From Actinomycetota bacterium (GTDB taxonomy: Bacteria; Actinomycetota; Acidimicrobiia; IMCC26256; BP-133): a DNA stretch of 34,874 nucleotides. Position 1 is the first letter of the stretch, and each line of letters starts with the position of its first letter. Position numbers and translations under genes: made by a program. The stretch covers positions 1-34,874 of the forward strand of contig JAUZEY010000207.1 of assembly GCA_030838785.1 (NCBI GenBank), given 5' to 3'. The notes beneath the pieces are model-generated. The model was not told the origin of the DNA. It did not search any database and was given only the letters and a program-made list of their open reading frames with translations. Shown here one piece after another: positions 1,803-15,433 of the stretch.

Positions 1803-2549
1803 CTACGGCGCCACCCGACGGGCCGCGGCCAGACCTCCCGCAGGAATTCCGGAGCGGCGGGCCAGGGCGGCGACCAGGGCCGGGAGCGGGGAGCCCTGCA
1901 GCGCCTCGATCCGGGGCCGGAGAGGGAGCCGGTAGGCGAAGACACCGCCGCCGTCGGGCCGGAGGGTGGCGCCGCCCCGGGCCAGCATCCGGCGGGATGA
2001 GATGTTCTCGCCGAGGACGAGGCCCTCGAAGCGGTCGAGGCCGTGGGCCATGCCGTCGAGGACGGCGACGTCGAGCAGCAGCCCGCCGAGACCGCGCCCC
2101 TGGTAGTCGTCGATCACCGTGATGGCCAGGTCCGCCACCACCGGATCGGCGTCGGTGCGGACCCAGCGCATGACGCCGGCCCCGATCGGTCCGGCCGGCT
2201 CGTCGACCAGCGCCCCGAACGCCCGGTGGTGGAGGCCGTCCACGGCGGTGAGGAAGGCCAGCATCGAGTCGGTCAGGCGGGGGACCGGGGAGAGGAAGCG
2301 CCGGTACCGGCTCTGTTTCGACAGCCGGGCGAAGGCGGCCACCAGCAGGTCGCCGTCGCCGGGGAGGAACGGCCGGAGGGTGATGTCGGTGCCGTCGGTG
2401 AGGCGCAGGTGGCCGGCGGGGTCGACGACCATCCAGCGGTGCCCGTCGCCGTCGGCCGGTTCTTCCCGGTCCGGCCGCCAGCCCCGGGGGAGGAGCGGCC
2501 CGTCGCCCCAGGGATCGGCCGGCCTGGCGGACCCGATCGGGGGGCTCAC
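1803..2549 (-). CDS. GNAT family N-acetyltransferase
   Basis: ITLRPFLPGDGDLL...SRYRRFLSP...VIDDYQGRGLGGLLLD; GTG start overlaps upstream stop (GTGA at 2546-2549). Confidence 0.75.
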   Translation of the reverse strand: MSPPIGSARPADPWGDGPLLPRGWRPDREEPADGDGHRWMVVDPAGHLRLTDGTDITLRPFLPGDGDLLVAAFARLSKQSRYRRFLSPVPRLTDSMLAFLTAVDGLHHRAFGALVDEPAGPIGAGVMRWVRTDADPVVADLAITVIDDYQGRGLGGLLLDVAVLDGMAHGLDRFEGLVLGENISSRRMLARGGATLRPDGGGVFAYRLPLRPRIEALQGSPLPALVAALARRSGIPAGGLAAARRVAP

Positions 2550-3004
2550 GGCGCCACCGGGGCCTTCGGGTAGAGCACCATCTGCGTGCAGCGGAAGAGG
2601 GCGAGGACCCGACCCGACCCGTCCGCGACCTCGGCGTCCCACACCTGGGTGCTCCGGCCGCCATGCACCAGCCAGGCCCGGCAGGCGATGACCTCGCCGG
2701 CCGGCGCCGTTCCCATGAAGTTCGACTTGAGCTCGAGGGTGGTGAAACCGGTCGCCCCGGCGGGGAGGGAGACCTGGCAGCCGTACCCGCACGACGTGTC
2801 GACGAGGGCGATCACCGAGGCGGCGTGGAGGAACCCGTTGGGGGCCATGTGCTTCGGCGCGATCGGGAGCCGGCTGCGGACGAGCGAAGGCTCGACCGAG
2901 TCGAACTGGAGGCCGAGCAGGCCCGGGAGGAGATCACGGCCGGCCTGCTCGAAGTCGGCGGCGGTGGCTCCTCCCGCCGAGCCGTTCCTTGCGAGTTGTG
3001 TCAT
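2546..3004 (-). CDS. PaaI-type hotdog-fold thioesterase
   Basis: HMAPNGFLHAASVIALVDTSCGYG...ELKSNFMGTAPAGEVIACRAWLVHGGRSTQVWDAEV. Confidence 0.8.
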   Translation of the reverse strand: MTQLARNGSAGGATAADFEQAGRDLLPGLLGLQFDSVEPSLVRSRLPIAPKHMAPNGFLHAASVIALVDTSCGYGCQVSLPAGATGFTTLELKSNFMGTAPAGEVIACRAWLVHGGRSTQVWDAEVADGSGRVLALFRCTQMVLYPKAPVAP

Positions 3005-3041
3005 GCAACGGAGTATACCGACTCCATTGCTTGATGCAACG
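3005..3041. promoter_or_regulatory. Candidate HxlR operator: GCAACGGAGT-ATACCG-ACTCCATTGC plus a third GCAA half-site
   Basis: 10-bp inverted repeat with one mismatch (3005-3014 / 3021-3030) between divergent genes; TTGC-TTGAT-GCAA follows at 3027-3039. Confidence 0.6.
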
Positions 3042-3056
3042 AACTACGATGAACAT

Positions 3057-3584
3057 ATGCGTCGTACGAGCTTCGCCGGGATGAACTGTTCGGTGGCCGG
3101 GGCCCTCGAGATCGTCGGGGAGTGGTGGACGTTTCTCGTGCTGCGCGACGCCTTCCTCGGCGTGCGGCGCTTCGAAGACTTCCAGCGCCGCCTCGGCATC
3201 GCCCGCAACGTCCTCACCTCACGTCTCCAGACCCTGGTCGGCCACGGCATCCTCGAGCGCCGGCGCTACCAGGAGCGGCCGGAGCGCTACGAGTACCGCC
3301 TGACCGACAAGGGCCTGGAGCTCCACCCGATCCTGGTGTCGCTGATGCAGTGGGGCGACAAGTGGGCCGGCGTGGCCGACGCGCCCCCGATGGTGCTCGT
3401 CCACAAGGGCTGCGGACACCCGAGCGCCCCCCGCATGGTGTGCGACCACTGCGGCGACCCCGTCCACGCCCGCGACCTGCAGCCCGTCACCGGCCCCGGC
3501 TGGAACGACGGCGAGGAGCTCGCTCCCCACCTCGTCCAGTGCCGCGCCGCCCCCACGCCCACCGCCCCCACGCCCACCGCCTAG
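3057..3584 (+). CDS. HxlR family winged-helix transcriptional regulator with C-terminal Cys-rich tail
   Basis: MNCSVAGALEIVGEWWTFLVLRDAFLGVRRFEDFQRRLGIARNVLTSRLQTLVGHGILERRRY; C-terminal CGH...VCDHCG. Confidence 0.85.
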   Translation: MRRTSFAGMNCSVAGALEIVGEWWTFLVLRDAFLGVRRFEDFQRRLGIARNVLTSRLQTLVGHGILERRRYQERPERYEYRLTDKGLELHPILVSLMQWGDKWAGVADAPPMVLVHKGCGHPSAPRMVCDHCGDPVHARDLQPVTGPGWNDGEELAPHLVQCRAAPTPTAPTPTA

Positions 3585-3600
3585 ACATCCCCATTAGCAG

Positions 3601-4710
3601 TCAGGGCCGACGCCGTCTCATGCCCCGAACCGGGGGGCGGTGCCGCAGGGCGGGGGAGCGGTCGGAGATCCAGGGGGCGTAGGGCGCCATCACGAATCCG
3701 GCCATGATCACCAGCACGGTGTCGTAGTTCACCCGCCAGCCCGAGAAGTCGCGCCAGGCCTGGTCCCGGTCGCCCCGGAGGGGGAGCCCGGCCGCGGCCA
3801 GGTGGTCGTAGACGGCGTCGTACTCTTCCCGGCTGATGGAGATCGGGTCGCCGGGGGAGGGTGAAGGGTCGTAGGGGATGTCGTAGAAGTCGGCGATCCG
3901 TCGCAGGGCCAGGTAGCCGCCCCGGACGCAGAGTTCCGCCGACGGGCTGCGGGCGACGTCGAGCGTGCTGGCATAGATCGACGCCGTGTCGAGCACCACT
4001 CCGGCGGCGATGATCCACGACCGTTCGGGCTGCGGGGAGCGGAAGAACGGCAGCCCGGCGAAGCTGGTGTGGGTCTCCTCGATGTCGACGAACCAGTCGA
4101 GCCACGGCCGCCAGACGTCCATCTCCATCTGGTCGAGCCCCTTGATGGCCTGGAAGCGGCTGAGCATCTCGGCCGGCGTGGGCGGTGAGCCGGCCAGGAT
4201 CGTCACCAGGGCCACCGAATGCTCCCGGCGGGAGAAGGCGCCGTACATCGACGGCAGGTAGGTGATGAGCAGGGCCAGCAGGATGAGGCCGAGCACCGCC
4301 TCGGCGAAGGCCAACACGGTCGTCGGCAGGTCGGGGGCCCGCAGGAAGCCGAGCGTGAGCAGCGACGAGCCGCTGGTCACGAAGGCGGTCCGGAGGGGCT
4401 GCACACCCAGGGCCCAGAACATGGCCGTGAACCCCACGAGCGTGAGGGCCAGCCACACCACCGGCAGCACGATGAGCGTGAGGGGGGCGTACAGGGCCAT
4501 GCCCCGGTCGCGCTCCTCGTAGGTGTCGGCGAACCGGCTCCGGAACTCGAAGAACCGCCGCATCGTGAGGAAGACGATCCGGGTCAGGCGGACGGGCACC
4601 CCCCGGGGCACGACCACCGTGCTGACGGCCGACAGGAAGACGGCCGTCGACCAGGCCAGTCCGGCGGCGAAGGCGGCGATGGCGGCCACGGTGCAACCCG
4701 GACAGTTCAC
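3601..4710 (-). CDS. Integral membrane protein with ion-channel-like (Ion_trans_2-like) pore region
   Basis: Multiple hydrophobic segments; TSGSSLLTLGFLRAPD resembles a degenerate K+ channel pore; competing frame 3581..4696 is Arg/Pro rich. Confidence 0.6.
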   Translation of the reverse strand: MNCPGCTVAAIAAFAAGLAWSTAVFLSAVSTVVVPRGVPVRLTRIVFLTMRRFFEFRSRFADTYEERDRGMALYAPLTLIVLPVVWLALTLVGFTAMFWALGVQPLRTAFVTSGSSLLTLGFLRAPDLPTTVLAFAEAVLGLILLALLITYLPSMYGAFSRREHSVALVTILAGSPPTPAEMLSRFQAIKGLDQMEMDVWRPWLDWFVDIEETHTSFAGLPFFRSPQPERSWIIAAGVVLDTASIYASTLDVARSPSAELCVRGGYLALRRIADFYDIPYDPSPSPGDPISISREEYDAVYDHLAAAGLPLRGDRDQAWRDFSGWRVNYDTVLVIMAGFVMAPYAPWISDRSPALRHRPPVRGMRRRRP

Positions 4711-4856: not shown

Positions 4857-5924
4857 GTGAAGATGCATCGTCGCATGCGGACGGGCGTGGCGGTCGGCCT
4901 GCTGGCCGCGCTGGCCCTGGCCGGCTGTGGATCAGATTCCAAGAAGTCTGCCGAGGGCGGCGCCGTCAAGGGTGCCGAGAAGGTGACCCTCCGCCTCGGC
5001 TACTTCACGAACATCACCCATGCCTCGGCGCTGGTGGGTCTGGAGAAGGGCATCTTCGCCGACAAGCTCGGCCCGAACGTGACCCTGACCCCGAGCGTCT
5101 TCGCCGCCGGGCCGGCCGCCGTGGAGGCCATCTTCAGCGGCGCCATCGACGCCACCTACGTCGGGCCCAACCCGGCCATCAACGCCTTCGCCAAGAGCAA
5201 CGGTGAAGCGGTCCGGATCATCTCCGGGGCCACCTCCGGCGGAGCGTTCCTGGTGGTGAACCCGTCCATCGCCAAGCCGGCCGACCTCAAGGGCAAGAAG
5301 GTCGCCACCCCCCAGCTGGGCAACACGCAGGACGTGGCGCTGCGCAGCTGGCTCAAGGCCAACAAGCTCTCCAGCGACACCCAGGGCGGCGGTGACGTCT
5401 CGGTCGTGCCCCAGGACAACGCCCAGGCGCTGGAGGCCTTCAAGGCGGGGTCGATCGCCGGGGCCTGGGTGCCCGAGCCCTGGGCCACCCGCATGGTGCA
5501 GGAGGGCAAGGGGAAGGTCCTCGTCGACGAGAAGACCCTCTGGCCCGGCGGGCAGTTCGTGACCACCCAGCTCATGGTGCGGACCGCGTTCCTGAAGGAC
5601 CACCCGGACGTCGTCCAGCACCTCCTCGAGGGCCAGGTGGCGGCCACCGACTTCCTCAACGCCAACCCGGCCGAGGCCAAGACGCTGGCCAACCAGGCCA
5701 TCCAGAAGGTGGCCGGGAAGGCCCTGCCCCAGGCCGTCCTCGACGCCGCCTGGCCCAACATGACCTTCACCAACGACCCCATCGCCGCCAGCCTCCGCAA
5801 GGGCGCCGACAACGCCAAGGCCGTCGGTCTCCTCGACGCCGGCACCAAGCTCGACGGGATCTACGACCTGACGCTGCTGAACAAGGTCCTGAAGGCGGCC
5901 GGCAAGCCGGAGGTGAAGTCGTGA
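4857..5924 (+). CDS. ABC transporter substrate-binding lipoprotein (SsuA/TauA/NrtA-like)
   Basis: Lipobox LALAGC; LRLGYFTNITHASALVGLEKGIFADKLG, FSGAIDATYVGPNPAINAF. Confidence 0.85.
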   Translation: MKMHRRMRTGVAVGLLAALALAGCGSDSKKSAEGGAVKGAEKVTLRLGYFTNITHASALVGLEKGIFADKLGPNVTLTPSVFAAGPAAVEAIFSGAIDATYVGPNPAINAFAKSNGEAVRIISGATSGGAFLVVNPSIAKPADLKGKKVATPQLGNTQDVALRSWLKANKLSSDTQGGGDVSVVPQDNAQALEAFKAGSIAGAWVPEPWATRMVQEGKGKVLVDEKTLWPGGQFVTTQLMVRTAFLKDHPDVVQHLLEGQVAATDFLNANPAEAKTLANQAIQKVAGKALPQAVLDAAWPNMTFTNDPIAASLRKGADNAKAVGLLDAGTKLDGIYDLTLLNKVLKAAGKPEVKS

Positions 5925-6724
5925 GTGCGCTCCGTCTGAGCCCGGGGCGCGCCGCCGAGACCACCTCGGCTCCCGCCCCCGGCAGCCCGGCCATCTCGGT
6001 CGACGCCGTGACCAAGGTCTACGGGCCCCGGGGCAACCACACCTTCGCCCTCGACCGCATCTCCCTCGAGGTGGCCCCGGGCGAGTTCTGCTGCCTGGTC
6101 GGCGCCTCCGGCTGCGGCAAGAGCACGCTCCTCAACCTGCTGGCCGGGCTCGACTCGCCGGCCGCCGGCACGGTGGCGGTCCACGGCCGTACCTCGCTCA
6201 TGTTCCAGGAGTCGGCGCTGTTCCCCTGGCTGTCGGTGCGGGGCAACATCAACCTGGCCCTGCGGCTGGCCGGCGTCCCCAAGGGCGAGCGCTACGACCG
6301 GGCCAGTGAGCTGCTCCGCATGGTGCGGCTCAAGGGCTTCGGCGGCAAGCGGCCCCACGAGCTCTCCGGCGGCATGCGCCAGCGGGTGGCGCTGGCCCGG
6401 TCCCTGGCCCAGAACGCCTCCGTCCTCCTCATGGACGAGCCGTTCGGCGCCCTCGACGCCATCACCCGCGACCTGCTCCACGACGAGCTCGAGCGGGTGT
6501 GGCAGGAGACCGGCCTGTCGGTCGTGTTCGTGACCCACAACGTGCGGGAGGCCGTCCGCCTCGGCGACCGGGTGCTGGTGCTGTCGAGCCGCCCCGGCCG
6601 CGTCGTCGACGAGTTCCCCGTCGACATCCCCCGTCCCCGTCGCCTCGACGACGCCGAGGTGTCCTCCCTGTCCGGCACCATCACGGACCGTCTCCGCCAG
6701 GAGGTGCGCCGCCATGGCGCTTGA
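5921..6724 (+). CDS. ABC transporter ATP-binding protein (SsuB/TauB/NrtD-like)
   Basis: Walker A GASGCGKSTL, signature LSGGMRQRVALARSL, Walker B VLLMDEPFGALD; GTGA overlap with upstream gene. Confidence 0.9.
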   Translation: MSALRLSPGRAAETTSAPAPGSPAISVDAVTKVYGPRGNHTFALDRISLEVAPGEFCCLVGASGCGKSTLLNLLAGLDSPAAGTVAVHGRTSLMFQESALFPWLSVRGNINLALRLAGVPKGERYDRASELLRMVRLKGFGGKRPHELSGGMRQRVALARSLAQNASVLLMDEPFGALDAITRDLLHDELERVWQETGLSVVFVTHNVREAVRLGDRVLVLSSRPGRVVDEFPVDIPRPRRLDDAEVSSLSGTITDRLRQEVRRHGA

Positions 6725-7616
6725 GATCCAGGATCCCCCCGTCCTGAGTGACCGGGAGGCCGAGATCGCCGGCCTCGACGCCCTCGACGTCCCCCTCGCC
6801 TCGGCCCGGGGCAAGCTGGCCCGGGCCTGGGAGGGCCTGTGGCCCAAGCTGACCGCCCTGGGGCTGTTCCTGTTCGCCTGGCAGGCCATCGTCTGGTCCC
6901 ACTGGAAGCCGGACTACGTCCTGCCCGGCCCCATGACGGTGCTGAACAAGATGTGGCACGACCTCGTCGACACCGGCGGTGCCGCCGGGCCGCACGTCCT
7001 GCTCCACGCCGCCGGCACGACGATGCAGCGGGCCGTGGTCGGCTACGGCATGTCGGTCGTCATCGGCGTGGTCGTGGGCCTGGCCGTGTCCCGCAGCCGG
7101 ATCCTCCGGGCCGGCGTCGGGTCGATGATCACCGGCCTGCAGACCATGCCGACGATCGCCTGGCTGCCGCTGGCCGTGCTGCTGTTCAAGCTGTCCGAGA
7201 CCGCCATCACCTTCGTGGTCGTCATGGGGGCGGCGCCGGCCATCGCCAACGGCGTCATCTCCGGGGTGGACCACATCCCGCCGGTCCTGCTGCGGGCGGG
7301 CCGGGTGCTCGGGGCCAGGGGCCTCAGTGCCTACCGTTTCATCATCCTTCCCGCCGCCCTCCCGGGCCTCGTGGCCGGGCTGAAGCAGGGCTGGGCCTTC
7401 GCCTGGCGGTCCCTCATGGCCGGTGAGTTGATCGTCATCATCGCCCACAAGCCGTCGCTCGGGGTCCGGCTGCAGAACGCCCGGGACTTCTCCGACGCCC
7501 CCGGCCTCATGGCCGCCATGCTGGCCATCTTCGTCATCGGCGTCGTCATCGACTCGCTCTTCTTCGGCGTCCTCGAGCGGGGCATCCGCCGCCGCTGGGG
7601 CCTGGGCAGCCGGTAG
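6714..7616 (+). CDS. ABC transporter permease (SsuC/TauC-like)
   Basis: Hydrophobic helices and EAA-like loop GARGLSAYRFIILPAALPGLVAGLKQGWAFAWRSLMAGEL. Confidence 0.88.
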   Translation: MALEIQDPPVLSDREAEIAGLDALDVPLASARGKLARAWEGLWPKLTALGLFLFAWQAIVWSHWKPDYVLPGPMTVLNKMWHDLVDTGGAAGPHVLLHAAGTTMQRAVVGYGMSVVIGVVVGLAVSRSRILRAGVGSMITGLQTMPTIAWLPLAVLLFKLSETAITFVVVMGAAPAIANGVISGVDHIPPVLLRAGRVLGARGLSAYRFIILPAALPGLVAGLKQGWAFAWRSLMAGELIVIIAHKPSLGVRLQNARDFSDAPGLMAAMLAIFVIGVVIDSLFFGVLERGIRRRWGLGSR

Positions 7617-7624
7617 CTACGACG

Positions 7625-8080
7625 ATGCGCGAAGTCGGCATGCAAGTGACGGCCAAGGCCGAGTACGCCCTCCGGGCGGCGACGGTGCTGGCCTCGGCGG
7701 GGCCCGGGCCGGTCAAGAGCGAGACGATCGCCGACGCCGAGGACATCCCCCTGCGGTTCCTCCACAACATCCTGGCCGCCCTCACCCGGGGTGGGATCCT
7801 GACCAGCCTGCGGGGCGCCGACGGCGGCTACGAGCTCTGCCGGGACGCAGCCACGATCACCGTGGCCGACGTCATCCGGGCGGTCGAGGGGCCGTTCGCC
7901 GCCGGCGGCGGCCCCGAGATACCCACCGCAGTCTCCGGCGCCCGGCGGGAGACGCTCCGGGCCGTGTGGGCCGTCCTGCGGGCCAACGAGCGAGCCGTCC
8001 TCGAGTCGGTCACCCTGGCCGACCTGGCCGCCGGCCTCCTGCCCGAGATGACCTCGGTCGGACGGGCGCCGTCGGCCTAG
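7625..8080 (+). CDS. Rrf2 family transcriptional regulator without the Fe-S cysteine set
   Basis: VTAKAEYALRAATVLA...IPLRFLHNILAALTRGGILTSLRGADGGYEL...ITVADVIRAVEG; only one Cys in the protein. Confidence 0.85.
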   Translation: MREVGMQVTAKAEYALRAATVLASAGPGPVKSETIADAEDIPLRFLHNILAALTRGGILTSLRGADGGYELCRDAATITVADVIRAVEGPFAAGGGPEIPTAVSGARRETLRAVWAVLRANERAVLESVTLADLAAGLLPEMTSVGRAPSA

Positions 8081-8091
8081 TCTGGGCCTTC

Positions 8092-8892
8092 GTGGCAACC
8101 CTGGTCAGCTTTCACGCCCACCCCGACGACGAAGCGATCGCCTGCGGCGGCACCATGGCCAAGGCCGCCGCCGCCGGGCACCGGGTCGTCCTGGTCACGG
8201 CCACCTCGGGCGAGTGCGGCGAGGTGGCCGACGGCGTCCTCGACCCGGGCGAGACGCTGGGGGAGCGGCGCCAGAAGGAGCTGGCCGAGGCGGCCGAGAT
8301 CCTCGGCGTGGCCCGGGTGGAGATCCTGGGCTACCGCGACAGCGGCATGATCGGCACTCCGGAGAACGAGGACGCGGGGTGCTTCTGGCAGACGCCGGTC
8401 GACGAGGCGGCGGCCCGCCTGGCTCGCATCCTGGCCGAGGAGCGGCCGGACGCCCTCACGGTCTACGACGAGCACGGCAACTACGGCCATCCCGACCACA
8501 TCCAGGTCCACCGGGTCGGCGTGCGGGCGGCGGAGATGGCCCGGGTGGAGCGGGTCTACGAGGCGACGCTGAACCGCGACGAGTTCCGGCGGCTCATGGC
8601 CCGGGCCACCGAGCTCGGCCTTCCCGACGCCGCCGACCTGCCCGACATGGAAGACGTGGGCGACCAGATGGGGCTGCCCGAGGAGCTTCTGACGACGGCG
8701 GTCGACGTGTCGTCGCAGCTCGAGGTCAAGCGGCGGGCGATGGCCGCCCACGCCAGCCAGATCGACGAGAACTCTTTCTTCCTCACCATGCCGCCGGTCG
8801 CCTTCGCCGCGGCCTTCGGCACCGAGTGGTATCGGCGTCGCGGGGCGCCCCCCGGCCTGCGCGAACGGGAGATCCTCCCCAACGGGCTGTGA
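8092..8892 (+). CDS. PIG-L family deacetylase (MshB/Mca-like)
   Basis: HAHPDDEAIACGGTMAKAAAAGHRVVLVTAT...HGNYGHPDHIQVH; GTG start at 8092. Confidence 0.85.
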   Translation: MATLVSFHAHPDDEAIACGGTMAKAAAAGHRVVLVTATSGECGEVADGVLDPGETLGERRQKELAEAAEILGVARVEILGYRDSGMIGTPENEDAGCFWQTPVDEAAARLARILAEERPDALTVYDEHGNYGHPDHIQVHRVGVRAAEMARVERVYEATLNRDEFRRLMARATELGLPDAADLPDMEDVGDQMGLPEELLTTAVDVSSQLEVKRRAMAAHASQIDENSFFLTMPPVAFAAAFGTEWYRRRGAPPGLREREILPNGL

Positions 8893-8898
8893 GCGAAC

Positions 8899-8959
8899 GT
8901 TTCCACGCTGGAAACACAAGCGAAAACGGCCCAGCACAGACACTTCGTAGCGTTCTGCT
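8899..8959 (+). promoter_or_regulatory. Candidate operator GTTTCC-ACGCT-GGAAAC (8899-8915) and -10-like TAGCGTTCTGCT (8948-8959)
   Basis: Perfect 6-bp inverted repeat with 5-nt spacer; same arrangement as at 10035-10095. Confidence 0.6.
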
Positions 8960-9006
8960 CCAAAGGCCCGGCTGGCCTGTGGCCCGGGCACCGAAAGGAG
9001 CAGCCC

Positions 9007-9873
9007 ATGCCCATACCCATTGCCGAAGCCGTCTCGGAGCAGGCCGATCTGGCCCGGACGAAGGCGGTGGCGGCAAAGAACGTTCCGAAATTCCTGTTCT
9101 CCTCCGCGCTGGCCGGGGCCTACGTCGGCGTCGGGATCGTCCTCCTGGCCGCCACCACCGGGCCTTTGGCAGCGGCGAACTCTCCAGCCGTCAAGCTCGT
9201 CGCGGGGGCTGTCTTCGGAGTCGCTCTGACGCTGGTGATCATGGCCGGCGCGGACCTGTTCACCGGTCTGAACATGATCATGCTGCAGGGCTTGGCGGCG
9301 GGGACCGTGAATGCGCTCGAGCTCCTCTTCGTCTGGATCTCGTCGCTGGTGGGAAACCTGATCGGCGCTCTCGCCTTCTCCTGGCTGATAAACGCCGGCG
9401 GAACGCTGTCGGCGAAGACCCCGGCCGGGAAGCTCGGCCCGGGTGAGGCGTTCCTGGAGTCCCTGGTGAAGGCCAAGAACGCCGCGCCGGGCGCCCAGCT
9501 CTTCTGGCGGGCGCTGGCCTGCAACATGCTCGTCTGCCTGGCGGTGTGGATGGCCGCCCGGACGCGCAACGACGCCGCCAAGGTGATGGTCGTCTGGTGG
9601 TGCCTCATGGCGTTCATCGCCGTCGGCCTGGAGCACTCGATCGCCAACATGACGATCTACGGCGTGGCCATCTACCACCACGCCGCCGGGTATTCGGACC
9701 TCCTCCGCAACCTGACCTGGACCGTGCCGGGGAACATCGTGGGTGGGGGGCTCGTCATCGGCCTCGGCTACGCCTGGATCGCCGGGAAGAGTTCGGCGAT
9801 GCCGGCGGAAATGGTCGAGCCAACCCCGGTTGGCTCCAACGGGATGGCGGCGGAGGCGGCGGTCGCCCGCTGA
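9007..9873 (+). CDS. Formate/nitrite transporter (FNT) family channel
   Basis: AGADLFTGLNMIMLQG, FVWISSLVGNLIGA, AVGLEHSIANMTIYGVAIYHHA; RBS AAGGAG upstream. Confidence 0.9.
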   Translation: MPIPIAEAVSEQADLARTKAVAAKNVPKFLFSSALAGAYVGVGIVLLAATTGPLAAANSPAVKLVAGAVFGVALTLVIMAGADLFTGLNMIMLQGLAAGTVNALELLFVWISSLVGNLIGALAFSWLINAGGTLSAKTPAGKLGPGEAFLESLVKAKNAAPGAQLFWRALACNMLVCLAVWMAARTRNDAAKVMVVWWCLMAFIAVGLEHSIANMTIYGVAIYHHAAGYSDLLRNLTWTVPGNIVGGGLVIGLGYAWIAGKSSAMPAEMVEPTPVGSNGMAAEAAVAR

Positions 9874-9905
9874 TTCAGCCCTCGTCGAGCAACACCCGAC
9901 CGTAA

Positions 9906-9939
9906 GCGGGGCCCGACGCAAGTCGGGCCCCGCTCTTTT
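9906..9939 (+). terminator. Rho-independent terminator after FNT gene
   Basis: GCGGGGCCCGAC-GCAA-GTCGGGCCCCGC followed by TCTTTT; perfect 12-bp stem. Confidence 0.85.
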
Positions 9940-9951
9940 GCGTCAATACCG

Positions 9952-9979
9952 TTCGAATGTTTCTCAATAGCCATTCGAA
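9952..9979. promoter_or_regulatory. Inverted repeat TTCGAATG-N12-CATTCGAA
   Basis: Perfect 8-bp arms in an AT-rich intergenic island between FNT and copper operon. Confidence 0.45.
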
Positions 9980-10034
9980 TTTAAAGGGATAAGAACGTCG
10001 GTCGGCGGCTGCTAGAAGTTCCAAGCGAGATCCC

Positions 10035-10095
10035 GTTCTCTGGTTGGAAACATTCGGCAAACGGCTGCGACGCAAACGTTTCCTAGCGTCCTGCT
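10035..10095 (+). promoter_or_regulatory. Candidate operator GTTCTC-TGGTT-GGAAAC (10035-10051) and -10-like TAGCGTCCTGCT (10084-10095) of the copper operon
   Basis: Same layout and identical 32-nt spacing as the FNT upstream region. Confidence 0.6.
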
Positions 10096-10244
10096 TGCGG
10101 TGGTTTGTCCGTTGTGTCCGCTTGCGGCGCTGACGGGACCTCCCACCCGCTGGCGCCCCATCGGGGGCGAAAACCCCGCATGTCCTTGCCGCCTTACATC
10201 ACACCAGATCGGGGTTGCACACCCGAGAAAGGGGCTGCGCCGCA

Positions 10245-12254
10245 GTGAGAGAAACCACCAAACGACCGCGCGGAAGCATCAGGAGGAAGCTGCTCGGGCT
10301 TCCCGCTCTGCTCCTCCTTGCGACTGTCGTCGGCACGGCGAGCCTGGCCGGTTTGGCCGGGGCGTCCTCGTCACAGGGGGGAGCGAAGTTCGACGCTGCC
10401 ACCTGGAAGCCGACGCTCGACAGTCCGCTCCCGCCGATGGAAGCGCCGCTGTCGTTCCACCTGAGCGACCAGCCGGCGTACTGGTACGACAACGGTCGAG
10501 CCGACCTCGAAGGAATCCTGCACACCCGCTCGCTGTCGGCGGCGGTAGCCGGGGTTCCGACGAAGGTGAAGTTCGAGATCGGTGAGCCGTACACCAGCCA
10601 GACCCACACCGTTTCCAGCATCGTCTGGCCGGTGGGGGCCAAGGGAGTGCCCTTCATCCAGCAGGGGTCCTTCGCCGGGGAGACCGAGTTCGAGCTCTCC
10701 TCGCCGGGCCTCTACGTGTTCCAGTGCCGGGTCCACCCCTACATGCTCGGGGCCGTCGTCAACGACGACCCGACCACGCCGGGCGCCGACCTGGGCAAGT
10801 CGGTCCACTGGATCGACGGTACCGACATGCCGACCGCTTCCGACGAGATCCTCTTCATCGTCTCGAAGTTCTTCATCGTGACGGAGCCGGCCAACTGGCA
10901 GTACTACTCGCCCGACCACCCGGTCGTGTGGGACCCGCAGTTCCCGAGCGCCCCGGTGATGACCGGCAACGCCGACGGCTCTCCGAACCTGATTCCCAAC
11001 CTCAACGACTACTTCCACGCCAAGTACCACCTGCCCCAGACCCTCAACCCGCCGACCAAACCTGACGTCCAGGCCGTGGGCGACATGATGGTCGACACGC
11101 AGTTCGAGAAGTCGGCCGGCAAGGACAAGCCCGGCTCCATCACCACGTTCGACGGTTCGACGTGGGAGATGGACCGCAAGATGTTCCTGCCGTCGATCAA
11201 TATGAACAACCCGCACAACATGGGCCTGAGCCGTGACCAGAAGACCCTGTTCCAGAGCCAGTGGTTCTCGAACAAGGTCACGGCGATCGACCTGGCTACC
11301 GGCAAGGAGCTCCACACCACGGAAGTCGGACCGTCCCCGTCGCACGTCATGCGGCGTCCGGGCACCGACACGCTCATCGTTCCCAACAACGGTGGCAACC
11401 GGATCGTGGAGCTCGACCCCGCCGGGTCGAAGGTGATCAAGTCGTACTTCACCCAGGCCCCGGGTCAGGACCCTGCCTTCCCCCACGCCCACTGGGTGAG
11501 CTTCGACGGGAAGCACGTGGTCACCCCGAACTCGAACGAGTCCAACGCTTCGCTGTTCGACCTCAGCGTGCCGAACATGGTCAAGCCGTTCTCCGGCGGG
11601 TTCCCCGTCGCGACGTCGATGACCAACGACGGCAAGCGGGCGTACGTGGCCAACCTCCTCGACCACACCATCCGGTGTTTGTCGGTGGATGCGCCCGCCT
11701 GCCCGACGCCTGACGGTTCGATCAAGGATACGTACTCGATCGACCTGCGGGAGCACTACAACAAGATCAGCGGCGAGTCGAACGGCCCCTACGGCCTTTC
11801 GCCGATCCAGCTGCCGGTCAGCCCCGACGACCACTACATGCTGGTGGTCGGCACCTTCACCGGCAACGTGCTCGAGATCGACATGAAGACGAACAAGATC
11901 GTCAAGTCGTTCCCGTGCGGTCCCGGTTGCCACGGCATCAACTTCGGCGCCAAGAAGGGCGGGGGCTACCTCGGTTACGTGTCGGTCAAGTTCGCCAACG
12001 TCGCCTGGGTCATCGACGGTGACCCCAACAGCGACGGCGACCTGTCCGACGCCCGCCTGACCGGTGGCGTCATCACCAGTGGCGCAGCCACCAAGATCAA
12101 CGACGACACGCCCAGCTCGCAGTTCGGGCAGGGCGGCCAGGGCGTCTGGGCCTACCCCGAGGTCTACAACGGGTGGGTGCAGGAGCTGCCCGACGAGTGG
12201 AAGTCCCAGTTGACCTGCCAGCAGCAGAACCCGCTCCTGAAGGCGGTCTGCTAA
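10245..12254 (+). CDS. Exported cupredoxin-beta-propeller (YVTN-like) fusion protein
   Basis: Tat/Sec-like signal (SIRRKLLGLPALLLLA); T1 Cu ligands QTHTVSS...FQCRVHPYM; repeats such as PHNMGLSRDQKTLF, SHVMRRPGTDTLIV; GTG 10245 preferred because AAAGGGG lies 9 nt upstream. Confidence 0.8.
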   Translation: MRETTKRPRGSIRRKLLGLPALLLLATVVGTASLAGLAGASSSQGGAKFDAATWKPTLDSPLPPMEAPLSFHLSDQPAYWYDNGRADLEGILHTRSLSAAVAGVPTKVKFEIGEPYTSQTHTVSSIVWPVGAKGVPFIQQGSFAGETEFELSSPGLYVFQCRVHPYMLGAVVNDDPTTPGADLGKSVHWIDGTDMPTASDEILFIVSKFFIVTEPANWQYYSPDHPVVWDPQFPSAPVMTGNADGSPNLIPNLNDYFHAKYHLPQTLNPPTKPDVQAVGDMMVDTQFEKSAGKDKPGSITTFDGSTWEMDRKMFLPSINMNNPHNMGLSRDQKTLFQSQWFSNKVTAIDLATGKELHTTEVGPSPSHVMRRPGTDTLIVPNNGGNRIVELDPAGSKVIKSYFTQAPGQDPAFPHAHWVSFDGKHVVTPNSNESNASLFDLSVPNMVKPFSGGFPVATSMTNDGKRAYVANLLDHTIRCLSVDAPACPTPDGSIKDTYSIDLREHYNKISGESNGPYGLSPIQLPVSPDDHYMLVVGTFTGNVLEIDMKTNKIVKSFPCGPGCHGINFGAKKGGGYLGYVSVKFANVAWVIDGDPNSDGDLSDARLTGGVITSGAATKINDDTPSSQFGQGGQGVWAYPEVYNGWVQELPDEWKSQLTCQQQNPLLKAVC

Positions 12255-12261
12255 CCCAATC

Positions 12262-13737
12262 ATGCGCCGTTTCCTGATCGGCGCCCTTCTCGCCGCCGCC
12301 GGGGTGTTCGTCACCCCGGCGGCGGCTTGGGCCCATGCCGAGCTCCTGTCCTCCACCCCCGGCTACGGGGACCACCTGCCCACCGCGCCGGCCGAGATCC
12401 GGCTCGAGTTCTCGGGCGCCATGGACCTCACCGGCTCCCGCCTCACGTTGCAGCACAAGGGCGGAAAGACCGAGGCGCTGGGTCACCCGGCGCTGGCGTC
12501 CCCGGACCGCCGGGTGGTGGCGGTTCCCCTTCCGCCCAAGCTGGGCGACGGCGGATACTCCCTCGTCTGGTTCTTCCTCGGCAACGACGGCCACCTCATG
12601 GGCGGGGACATCGAATTCGCAGTCGGAAGGGCCGCACCGGAAGGCTCCGCCACCGTCGCCGCGTCGGCGGGCCGCGTCGAACCGACGGCCAAGGTCCGCT
12701 CGCTCGGGGACGGCATCGCCGGCCCCGCCATCGAACTGCAGGCCAGCACCGCTCCGGCACCGGCCCCGAAACGGGCCCGGTTCACCATTGCCGTCGCCAC
12801 TCCCCAGGCCGCCGTCCGCTTCCTCGACTACGCCAGCCTCGCCACCCTGATCGGCGGTGGGGCGTTCCTGGCCCTGGTGTGGACCGACGGCACCCGCGAG
12901 CGCCGGGCGCAGCAGCTGCTGTGGTGGGCGCTGCTCGGCTCGGCCGGCGCCACGCTGCTCAGCTTCGGCCTCACCGCCGCCGGCCTGCGGGGCGTCGGGG
13001 CCCTCGACGCCCTCCGCCCGTCCGTCATGAGTGCCGTGCTCGGCACCCGCTTCTCCCGGATCATCACGGCCCGGGCCGGGTTCCTGGCGTTGGGTTTCGT
13101 CGCTCTGGCCCTGCTGACGCTGGGCCGGGACCGGGCGGTCAGCTCCCGGTGGTGGCAGGGCCTGGCCGGAGTCGCCGCGGGCGGGGTGCTGGTCACCCAC
13201 GCCCTGCTCGGGCACGCCTCCAGCGAAGGTCTCCTGGCCCGCGTGGCCGTGCTGGTCCATATCGCCGGCGTGTCCGTCTGGCTCGGCGGTCTCATCTTTC
13301 TCGTCGTCGTCGTGCTGCCGCGACGGCGCCCCGACGAGGTCCGCGTCCTCCTGCCCCGCTTCTCCAGCCTGGCCTTCACGGCGGTGGCGGCCATGGTGGT
13401 GGCCGGGGCGGTGATGGTCACCCGGGTCGTGCCGAGGCTGAGCGCGCTGCCGCAGACCGGTTACGGCCGGATGCTGCTGCTCAAGCTGGCGTTCGTGGCG
13501 CTCCTGCTCGTGGCTGCCCAGCAGGCCCGCACCTTCACGGAGCGCCGCCTGGTGAAGGACTCCACCCGGCTGCGCCCGCTGCTCACCGCCGTGGGCGTGG
13601 AGCTGACCCTGGCCATCGTCATCCTCTCCTCGACCGCCGTGCTGGTGGGCCGGGTGCCGCCCACCACCCGCACCAACCGCACTGCTGCACCAATCGTCAC
13701 TGCACCGATCGTCACTGCACCGAAAGGACCGGGATGA
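12262..13737 (+). CDS. CopC-CopD fusion copper transport/resistance protein (YcnJ-like)
   Basis: AHAELLSSTPGYGDHLPTAPAEIRLEFSG (CopC), FFLGNDGHLMGG, followed by multi-TM CopD region. Confidence 0.85.
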   Translation: MRRFLIGALLAAAGVFVTPAAAWAHAELLSSTPGYGDHLPTAPAEIRLEFSGAMDLTGSRLTLQHKGGKTEALGHPALASPDRRVVAVPLPPKLGDGGYSLVWFFLGNDGHLMGGDIEFAVGRAAPEGSATVAASAGRVEPTAKVRSLGDGIAGPAIELQASTAPAPAPKRARFTIAVATPQAAVRFLDYASLATLIGGGAFLALVWTDGTRERRAQQLLWWALLGSAGATLLSFGLTAAGLRGVGALDALRPSVMSAVLGTRFSRIITARAGFLALGFVALALLTLGRDRAVSSRWWQGLAGVAAGGVLVTHALLGHASSEGLLARVAVLVHIAGVSVWLGGLIFLVVVVLPRRRPDEVRVLLPRFSSLAFTAVAAMVVAGAVMVTRVVPRLSALPQTGYGRMLLLKLAFVALLLVAAQQARTFTERRLVKDSTRLRPLLTAVGVELTLAIVILSSTAVLVGRVPPTTRTNRTAAPIVTAPIVTAPKGPG

Positions 13738-14213
13738 TCACACCACTACGCGCTGCCGCCCTCGCGGTCGCGACGGCGTTGCTCGTACCGATGGTGACGT
13801 CCGGCCCGGCCCGGGCCGAGGAGCACACCGACGAGATCAAGGGCCTCGCTTTCAACCCGGACCAGCTGTCGGTCCGGGCCGGTGACGCCGTCACCTGGGT
13901 CAACCACGACAGCGACAAGCATCACCTGCAGGGTGACGGGTTCGAGTCGAAGGATCTGCCCAACAACAGCACGTTCACGGTCCAGTTCCCGGAGCCGGGG
14001 GAGATCGCCTACCACTGCACGATCCACACCTATATGGAGGGCAAGGTCGTCGTGTTGAACCCCGACGGCAGCACGCCGCCTTCCACCGCCGGAGAGCCCG
14101 AGGCGCCGCCCGCCCCGTCGACCACGACGTCGAGCACCAACCCGCCCGGCCCGCTGGACGGCGTGCCGGCGGCGCCCGCACCGGCACCGCCCGTACCGGC
14201 GCCGAAGCGATGA
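13734..14213 (+). CDS. Exported amicyanin/plastocyanin-like blue copper protein with Pro-rich C-tail
   Basis: FNPDQLSVRAGDAVTWVNHDSDKHHLQG...GEIAYHCTIHTYMEGKVVV; ATGA overlap with copCD. Confidence 0.85.
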   Translation: MITPLRAAALAVATALLVPMVTSGPARAEEHTDEIKGLAFNPDQLSVRAGDAVTWVNHDSDKHHLQGDGFESKDLPNNSTFTVQFPEPGEIAYHCTIHTYMEGKVVVLNPDGSTPPSTAGEPEAPPAPSTTTSSTNPPGPLDGVPAAPAPAPPVPAPKR

Positions 14214-15433
14214 GCAGGAGGGACACCGAGATGCGACAGACACGCCTGAACCTCCTCCTGGCCACGATCCTCACGGTCAACCTGATCGGTGTCGGGGTGC
14301 TCGTGGCCCGGACGGCCGAGCGGCGCCCGGTCACGGTGCGGGCCGGGGCCTCACCGAAGTACGACCTCAGCGCTCCGGATCAGCTGCCGGGAGAGATCTC
14401 CGTCGCCCCCGAATCCGGTTCGGGCAGCGGCCGCCCCGACAGCTTCGTCGGGGGCGCCGCCCGGGGCGACGGCACCGTCTTCGCCAAGTACGACGTGGCC
14501 GACGACGGCGCCAAGGTGTTCAAGCTCGACGCCGCTCCCTACACCTGGATCGTGGCCCCGGGCGTGAAGAAGCAGGCCTTCGCCTACAACGGCACCGTTC
14601 CCGGGCCGACGATCCGGGTCATCGAGGGCGACAAGGTGCGGGTGGTGGTGAGCAACCACCTGCCGATGGGAACCGCCGTCCACTGGCACGGCATGGTGCT
14701 GCCCAACAAGATGGACGGCGTCCCCGGCATCACCCAGGACCCGATCGAGCCGGGCGCATCGATGACCTACGAGTTCGTCGCCGTGGCCACCGGGACGCAC
14801 TGGTACCACAGCCACTTTGACGGCGACCAGGTCGGCAAGGGCCTCTACGGCTCCCTGGAGGTCGTGCCCCACACCGGGGACCGGGCCGTCGACCGCGACT
14901 ACCGGTTGTTCGTCGGTGACACGAACCTCGGCTTCGTGATCAACGGCCGGACCTATCCGGGCACGGAACCGCTCAAGGCCAAGGTGGGGGAGAAGATCCG
15001 GATCCGGCTCACCCCGACCGGTGAGCTCTCGCACCCCTTCCACCTCCACGGCCAGCCGTTCCAGCTGGTGGCCCAGGACGGGTTCGACTTACCCCAGCCC
15101 ATCACGATGGACACGCTGCTGATATCGACGGCCCAGACGTTCGACATCATCACCGTGGCGCTGGCGCCGGGGAAGTGGATGTTCCACTGCCACATCTTCA
15201 GCCATATGCACGCCGCAGGGCCGCATGCCGGGCACCAGATGGCGGGCCTCGTCACGACGCTCGACGTCGAACCCGCCGCGGTGCCCGCCGCTCCGCCGCT
15301 CAACGGCGTCAACCCCGCCGTCGGCGTGCCGTCCGCTCCCGTCACCCCCGGCCCCGACAACCCGCCCGGCGGTGACCCGAAGGACAAGGACAAGAACGGA
15401 GGGGGCACCGCCCCGCCGGGCGACCATCACTGA
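14210..15433 (+). CDS. Two-domain multicopper oxidase
   Basis: AVHWHGMVLPN, HWYHSHFDGDQ, LSHPFHLHGQPF, MFHCHIFSHMHAAGPHAGHQM; ATGA overlap with upstream cupredoxin. Confidence 0.85.
   Translation: MSRRDTEMRQTRLNLLLATILTVNLIGVGVLVARTAERRPVTVRAGASPKYDLSAPDQLPGEISVAPESGSGSGRPDSFVGGAARGDGTVFAKYDVADDGAKVFKLDAAPYTWIVAPGVKKQAFAYNGTVPGPTIRVIEGDKVRVVVSNHLPMGTAVHWHGMVLPNKMDGVPGITQDPIEPGASMTYEFVAVATGTHWYHSHFDGDQVGKGLYGSLEVVPHTGDRAVDRDYRLFVGDTNLGFVINGRTYPGTEPLKAKVGEKIRIRLTPTGELSHPFHLHGQPFQLVAQDGFDLPQPITMDTLLISTAQTFDIITVALAPGKWMFHCHIFSHMHAAGPHAGHQMAGLVTTLDVEPAAVPAAPPLNGVNPAVGVPSAPVTPGPDNPPGGDPKDKDKNGGGTAPPGDHH

Follow-up and report, generated by a model that had tools for sequence, protein, structure and literature searches.

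The two look-alike promoter elements that precede a formate/nitrite-type (FNT) channel gene and a copper-protein operon in the 34,874-nucleotide stretch of Actinomycetota DNA analyzed here (the window) are very probably GlnR-type nitrogen-control promoters, and, judged by their sequence, they are real members of a wider nitrogen-starvation promoter family. What the sequence shows is the module, the phase that it keeps, its reappearance at nitrogen genes, and glnR-like and nnaR-like genes in the same genome; from these we infer binding, activation, and signal at these promoters. Both the channel gene and the copper operon are probably members of a nitrate/nitrite regulon of GlnR, perhaps of GlnR together with NnaR, with nitrogen limitation as the expected signal, whereas the first-pass annotation of this DNA had implied nitrite, copper, or low oxygen as the primary one.

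The FNT promoter carries GTTTCCACGCTGGAAAC at 8899-8915, followed after 32 nt by TAGCGT at 8948-8953, and the copper promoter carries GTTCTCTGGTTGGAAAC at 10035-10051, with the identical 32-nt spacing to TAGCGT at 10084-10089. Both elements thus lie exactly where the first-pass annotation had put them, although each is longer than was described there, its half-sites spanning 8889-8937 and 10025-10073, respectively (Table 1). With up to two mismatches allowed, shuffles lead one to expect 5.4 matches to the bare palindrome and the window has 4, so that the palindrome by itself is not above chance; it is the composite with the -10 box that stands out. In the 4.5 Mb of the host genome, the only two matches to GGAAAC-N32-TAGCGTNCTGCT are the window sites at 8910 and 10046, and spacers of 31-33 nt likewise return only these two sites genome-wide and none in the reversed control. 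The CTGCT that follows the -10 box in the pair is probably incidental, being absent from the other members. The more general SNAACA-N31-TASSGT occurs exactly four times in the host, at the FNT, copper, and divergent nirA/met8 promoters, and 10 times in the 14.4 Mb of the genus, where 8 of the matches are promoters of the FNT/copper/nir/nar/met8/glnB type. Such genome-wide statements come from pattern scans of the host assembly (G000; 4.5 Mb, 604 contigs, 78% complete) and, for the genus, of the host plus two sister genomes (G197 and G218), which are themselves incomplete. A consensus scan found no sigma-70 -35/-10 pair at either promoter, in line with the earlier remark that a good -35 is missing, and a reading of GGAAAC as the -35 of an ECF sigma factor was rejected, as the alignment, inspected by eye, has no conserved ECF -10 at 16-17 nt.

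Table 1. Features of the FNT and copper promoters and of the genes that they precede (positions in the window)
Feature	Position	Strand	Evidence
GTGAG element, far-upstream 11-bp phase of FNT promoter	8889..8893	+	alignment; NnaR half-site-like (PMC6277429 motif)
Putative GlnR-type half-sites, FNT: a1 TTTCC 8900-8904, b1 GAAAC 8911-8915	8900..8937	+	alignment, matrix
Putative GlnR-type half-sites, FNT: a2 GAAAA 8922-8926, b2 AGCAC 8933-8937	8900..8937	+	alignment, matrix
-10 box TAGCGT, FNT gene	8948..8953	+	TAssGT-like box in the same phase at 14 other promoters
FNT-family (formate/nitrite) channel gene, 288 aa	9007..9873	+	PF01226 E=1.4e-56
Intrinsic terminator 3' of FNT gene	9905..9934	+	13-pair stem, T-rich tail
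GCGAG element, far-upstream phase of copper promoter	10025..10029	+	alignment
Putative GlnR-type half-sites, copper: a1 TTCTC 10036-10040, b1 GAAAC 10047-10051	10036..10073	+	alignment, matrix
Putative GlnR-type half-sites, copper: a2 CAAAC 10058-10062, b2 GACGC 10069-10073	10036..10073	+	alignment, matrix
-10 box TAGCGT, copper operon; GTG start ~155 nt on	10084..10089	+	sequence, alignment
Secreted protein: type-1 cupredoxin (H121, C161, H164, M167) + beta-propeller	10245..12254	+	domain, structure-model evidence
CopC-CopD fusion (copper uptake)	12262..13737	+	PF04234, PF05425
Plastocyanin-like cupredoxin	13734..14213	+	PF13473, PF00127
Two-domain multicopper oxidase	14210..15433	+	PF07732, PF07731; best solved relative 3g5w

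Alignment of 15 promoters shows that the conserved bases recur every 11 bp without mirror symmetry, as an array of a1 (k)TnAC, b1 GAAAC, a2 GnAAC, and b2 GAAAC/TTCAC, followed by 10 nt and TAssGT. The second-position T of a1 and both the G and the fourth-position A of b1 are present in 15/15, the fourth-position A of a2 in 14/15, and that of b2 in 12/15; in the window, the a1 of both promoters is weak, and the FNT a1 and the copper b2 are degenerate. The element, gTnAC-n6-GAAAC-n6-GnAAC-n6-GAAAC + 10 nt + TAssGT, can be identified with the actinobacterial GlnR box, whose half-site pattern (gTnAc-n6-GaAAc in 11-bp phasing, usually two pairs) is found across the 15 promoters. In S. coelicolor the GlnR box is gTnAc-n6-GaAAc, twice (PMC10704036), and in M. 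smegmatis it is Gn2AC-n6-GnAACA (PMC3662644); the A directly after GnAAC is invariant at ten genus sites, as in the M. smegmatis GnAACA.

The palindrome of the first-pass annotation accordingly looks like two of four half-sites spaced by 11 bp. That GTTYYC-N5-GGAAAC is instead a true dyad, bound by an unassigned dimeric activator such as the neighboring Rrf2 protein, would agree with the perfect dyad formed by the arms at 8899-8915 and with the Rrf2 gene upstream in both G000 and G218; however, the left arm varies in the other members (TTCAC/TTCTT/TTTTT) without any inverted-repeat conservation, and what is kept is the direct 11-bp phasing, so that this explanation is already largely refuted and hardly credible. 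The Rrf2 gene, moreover, follows an ssu-type sulfonate ABC operon, and its product, with a single cysteine in G000 and no cysteine in G218, was rejected as an NsrR-type sensor, since a protein of this kind is unlikely to carry the cluster of NsrR. The ssu-type operon that ends in this gene occupies 4857-8080 of the window, and the Rrf2 protein is probably a sulfur regulator.

The assignment to GlnR is also supported by where else the module is found. A genus-wide scan with GTTNNC-N5-GGAAAC-N32-TANNNT (at most two mismatches) returned additional intergenic sites that keep this exact spacing: between a gene for a reductase of the NirA family that carries a Rieske domain at its C-terminus and the divergent siroheme synthase gene met8 (G000:C31 and G197:C822), between met8 and the divergent nirB (G218:C619), and 5' of the P-II gene glnB (G218:C260) and of narK (G218:C297). 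The number of remaining matches was similar to that in the controls, and those inspected had no nitrogen-gene context. At 2154-4358 of locus L124, a nitrite/sulfite reductase of the NirA family was also noted in which a Rieske (NirD-like) domain forms the C-terminal part of the fusion. In a class-wide scan of 198 genomes with a phased pattern of three half-sites and the -10 box, 10 matches were obtained vs 7 for the reversed-pattern control, a count that alone proves little, as single weak matches can be chance. Four of these ten matches lie just 5' of ammonium transporter (amt) genes in other families, one of which is confirmed by Pfam PF00909 and three of which were recognized from sequence, and one lies 5' of an ABC ATPase gene; the fourth half-site, which the pattern left unspecified, reads GAAAC or GAAAA at all four amt promoters. 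In G224, the same phase is seen for GTCAC-n6-GACAT-n6-GAAAC 5' of an nrtA-like gene that diverges from an nnaR-like one. The classical targets of GlnR are ammonium transporters, P-II, nirA/nirB, narK, and glutamine synthetase (PMC10704036, PMC3662644), and this target set (amt, glnK/glnB, glnA, nirA/nirB, narK) is represented here. The earlier proposal of a shared, activator-dependent promoter module of fixed spacing with TAGCGT as its -10 box finds support, and so does its prediction that one regulator controls the channel and the copper operon together.

Conservation of the motif at orthologous loci, on which the first-pass annotation had staked its claim, was observed for the FNT locus in an altered form. 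A DNA search with the FNT-copper region led to contig C297 of the sister genome G218, which has the same order of ssu-type ABC transporter, Rrf2, and PIG-L-type deacetylase genes, followed by GTTTCCGCGGCGGAAAC-N32-TAGCGT, and the gene behind this syntenic promoter, starting 8 nt after the -10 box, encodes a NarK-family nitrate/nitrite transporter, not an FNT channel. The promoter has thus been kept, with a different nitrate/nitrite-type transporter gene behind it. The FNT gene was not found in the incomplete assemblies of G197 and G218, and FNT genes in other families (G196 and G228) are without the module. In another family of the class, the FNT gene of G114 (loci L093/L185, G114:C19 172160-174281) diverges from a HemD + winged-helix (NnaR-like) gene, with an a-b-like box present and the N32-TA phase absent.

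The possibility that the window promoters are alike simply through recent duplication, the copper copy being a functionless by-product, is very unlikely. The two lie only 1136 bp apart and both carry TAGCGTNCTGCT, which is absent from other members; outside the phased half-sites, however, they are dissimilar, agreeing at only about half of the 32 spacer positions. Because the other sites had been picked by their similarity to the window sites, the latter were tested with a held-out matrix trained solely on the nirA/nirB/met8/glnB promoters, from which the columns used in the search were left out. The copper site (18.5) scored above all of the ~251,000 background positions (rank 0), as did the narK site of G218 (rank 0 of ~251,000), and the FNT site (9.5) fell at a rank fraction of 4.8e-5. 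That the copper site fits better than the FNT site is unexpected for a decaying duplicate.

Where the first-pass annotation had left the regulator unassigned, all of the evidence points to GlnR, possibly acting with NnaR. Each of the three genus genomes has a glnR-like gene (G000:C41, G197:C774, G218:C261), with products that match S. coelicolor GlnR at 47-49% (47% for G000). The host gene (G000:C41 1532-2251, minus strand) encodes a protein that matches Pfam GlnR_1st with E=5.9e-5 and 23.4 bits, below the cut-off of 27, and it adjoins two divergent glutamine synthetase genes, between which lies a box, TTAAC-n6-TTCAT-n6-GAAAC-n6-GAAAT, that is present on the glnR contig of G197 too. By these marks, the host genome encodes an apparent GlnR orthologue. 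One phase further upstream of the box, the FNT, copper, narK, nirB, nirA, and met8 promoters have GnGAR (background frequency, 0.9%), which in the alignment is absent at the four amt promoters and glnB, and the co-activator NnaR may use this element as a half-site. The mycobacterial NnaR motif is a ctCAC-N16-GTGag palindrome (PMC6277429), of which only the GTGag-like half is seen at 8889, at 10025, and at the other nitrate/nitrite promoters, the second arm (ctCAC-N16) not standing at the proper distance. Because this other half was not found, co-control by NnaR is put forward as a suggestion.

The same GnGAR distribution, together with the HemD + winged-helix (nnaR-like) gene just 3' of nirA in G000 and the nnaR-like neighbor of the G114 channel gene, could be taken to mean that the module is mainly read not by GlnR but by a different member of the OmpR family that prefers the same half-sites, such as NnaR alone, MtrA, or PhoP. 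It has to be noted that the MtrA and PhoP motifs resemble that of GlnR and that those of MtrA and GlnR are reported to be nearly identical (PMC6277429). We regard this as unlikely, though deserving of some weight: phased half-sites of the same kind also stand before amt and P-II genes, which in studied actinomycetes are targets of GlnR and not of NnaR, and the missing arm of the palindrome speaks against NnaR as the main reader. Joint control by GlnR and NnaR would agree with GlnR as the main activator.

In the mechanism proposed for these GlnR-type promoters, GlnR, an OmpR-family winged-helix activator, would bind head to tail on a1-b1-a2-b2, 11 bp apart, and the last half-sites, 10 nt before the TAssGT -10 box, would stand in for a -35 box, with the consequence that polymerase would start efficiently only with GlnR bound. 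Under nitrogen limitation, the presumed nitrite channel and the copper operon would be induced as separate transcripts, together with NirA, siroheme synthase, and NnaR. A strong predicted terminator (9905-9934) separates the two transcripts. At most nir/nar promoters of the genus, the start codon comes 6-9 nt after the -10 box (leaderless), and the leaders measured from the -10 box are ~53 nt for the FNT gene and ~155 nt for the copper operon. A hairpin sequestering the ribosome-binding site in the FNT leader was looked for, and the folding was no better than that of shuffles (z 0.08). Separately, the copper leader (window 10095-10245, ~150 nt) folds better than shuffles (z about -2.3), and an inverted repeat, TTCGAATG-N12-CATTCGAA, at 9952-9979, within an AT-rich stretch that follows the FNT terminator and precedes the copper promoter, is a possible second operator. 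An Rfam scan of the region gave five matches, all below the gathering thresholds.

With respect to the genes themselves, the channel is clearly a member of the FNT superfamily, and its score of 183.6 bits against the NirC model PRK11562 is below the equivalog cut-off of 293; nitrite is its putative substrate, given the promoter context and the syntenic narK. The copper operon (10245 to 15433) encodes the cupredoxin-propeller protein, the CopC-CopD fusion, the plastocyanin-like protein, and the two-domain multicopper oxidase. The first of these has four invariant propeller histidines (H324, H367, H414, H563) and few close relatives, one of them, truncated, among the genome contigs, and its structure model has a low overall confidence (mean pLDDT 53.5) with a recognizable propeller. 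The cupredoxin-propeller family (window 10245-12254; L061 6669-8771, minus strand; L062 5182-7878) is without a whole-protein Pfam match, and its genes occur together with those for CopCD, to which the window and L062 add a gene for a two-domain multicopper oxidase. The gene order in G138 is propeller, cupredoxin-oxidase fusion, CopCD, and therefore the copper gene set is a unit there too. In G218 and G197, the close orthologues of the operon have their promoter side cut by contig ends; a match in G218:C107 considered as the missing promoter was spurious, and the distant homologous or paralogous copper loci G218:C6 and G138:C28 are without the module.

The propeller of the 10245-12254 protein resembles, weakly and partially, those of Clade III (lactonase-type) N2O reductase and of the hydrazine synthase beta subunit, but its score of 38 bits is far below the respective cut-offs, 700 and 560. 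A Clade III NosZ, for which the CuA and CuZ ligand sets would be expected, was rejected (38.3 bits vs the NF052460 cut-off of 700); unlike in that enzyme, the cupredoxin is N-terminal, with a single-Cys type-1 motif and not CuA, and the propeller has only four invariant histidines. A decidedly speculative and rather improbable proposal is that the operon serves extracytoplasmic nitrogen acquisition, in which a new cupredoxin-propeller copper enzyme, with copper supplied by CopCD and aided by the cupredoxin and the two-domain oxidase, would oxidize or release a nitrogen compound outside the membrane to yield nitrite or ammonium, the FNT channel would import nitrite, and the siroheme NirA would reduce it, all under one GlnR/NnaR switch.

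In comparison with the GlnR regulons of Streptomyces and Mycobacterium, the promoters described here share the half-site sequences, including a b-site GnAACA identical to that of M. smegmatis, the 11-bp phasing, the a-b-a-b order, the targets amt, P-II, nirA/nirB, narK, and glutamine synthetase, and the position of the activator upstream of a bare -10 box. They differ in the strictly fixed phase to the -10 box (b2 + 10 nt + TAssGT), in a TTCAC-like a1 in place of gTnAC at most sites, and in two putative targets, the FNT gene and the cupredoxin-propeller/CopCD/multicopper oxidase operon, that were not found as such in the literature searched; for the copper operon it is the target that is new there, the mechanism itself being known. 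The NnaR co-regulated promoters of mycobacteria and Streptomyces are similar in their narK, nirB, and nirA targets, in an nnaR gene adjoining the nitrite genes, in leaderless transcripts, and in a second element near the GlnR box, and differ in that only a possible half-site (GnGAR) is present here and the CAC-N16-GTG palindrome is not recognizable. A copper enzyme is known among the targets of GlnR, the M. smegmatis copper amine oxidase MSMEG_2526, which is GlnR-induced 782-fold under nitrogen limitation (PMC3662644), although its protein family is unrelated to the cupredoxin, propeller, CopCD, and two-domain multicopper oxidase of the window.

The promoter class of a poorly studied Actinomycetota lineage is thereby assigned, as a prediction, to a well-studied regulator, and the rule of a b2 half-site + 10 nt + TAssGT should allow genes of nitrogen starvation to be found in sequence without other data. 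What is unusual here is an operon for secreted copper proteins that is apparently switched on with nitrite uptake; an uncharacterized copper operon under putative nitrogen control beside a presumed nitrite channel gives a testable hint at the role of the copper protein. As a further observation on this protein family, at 9116-13192 of L061 (G218:C6) a paralogous cupredoxin-propeller/CopCD pair diverges from cupredoxin and cytochrome c oxidase genes.
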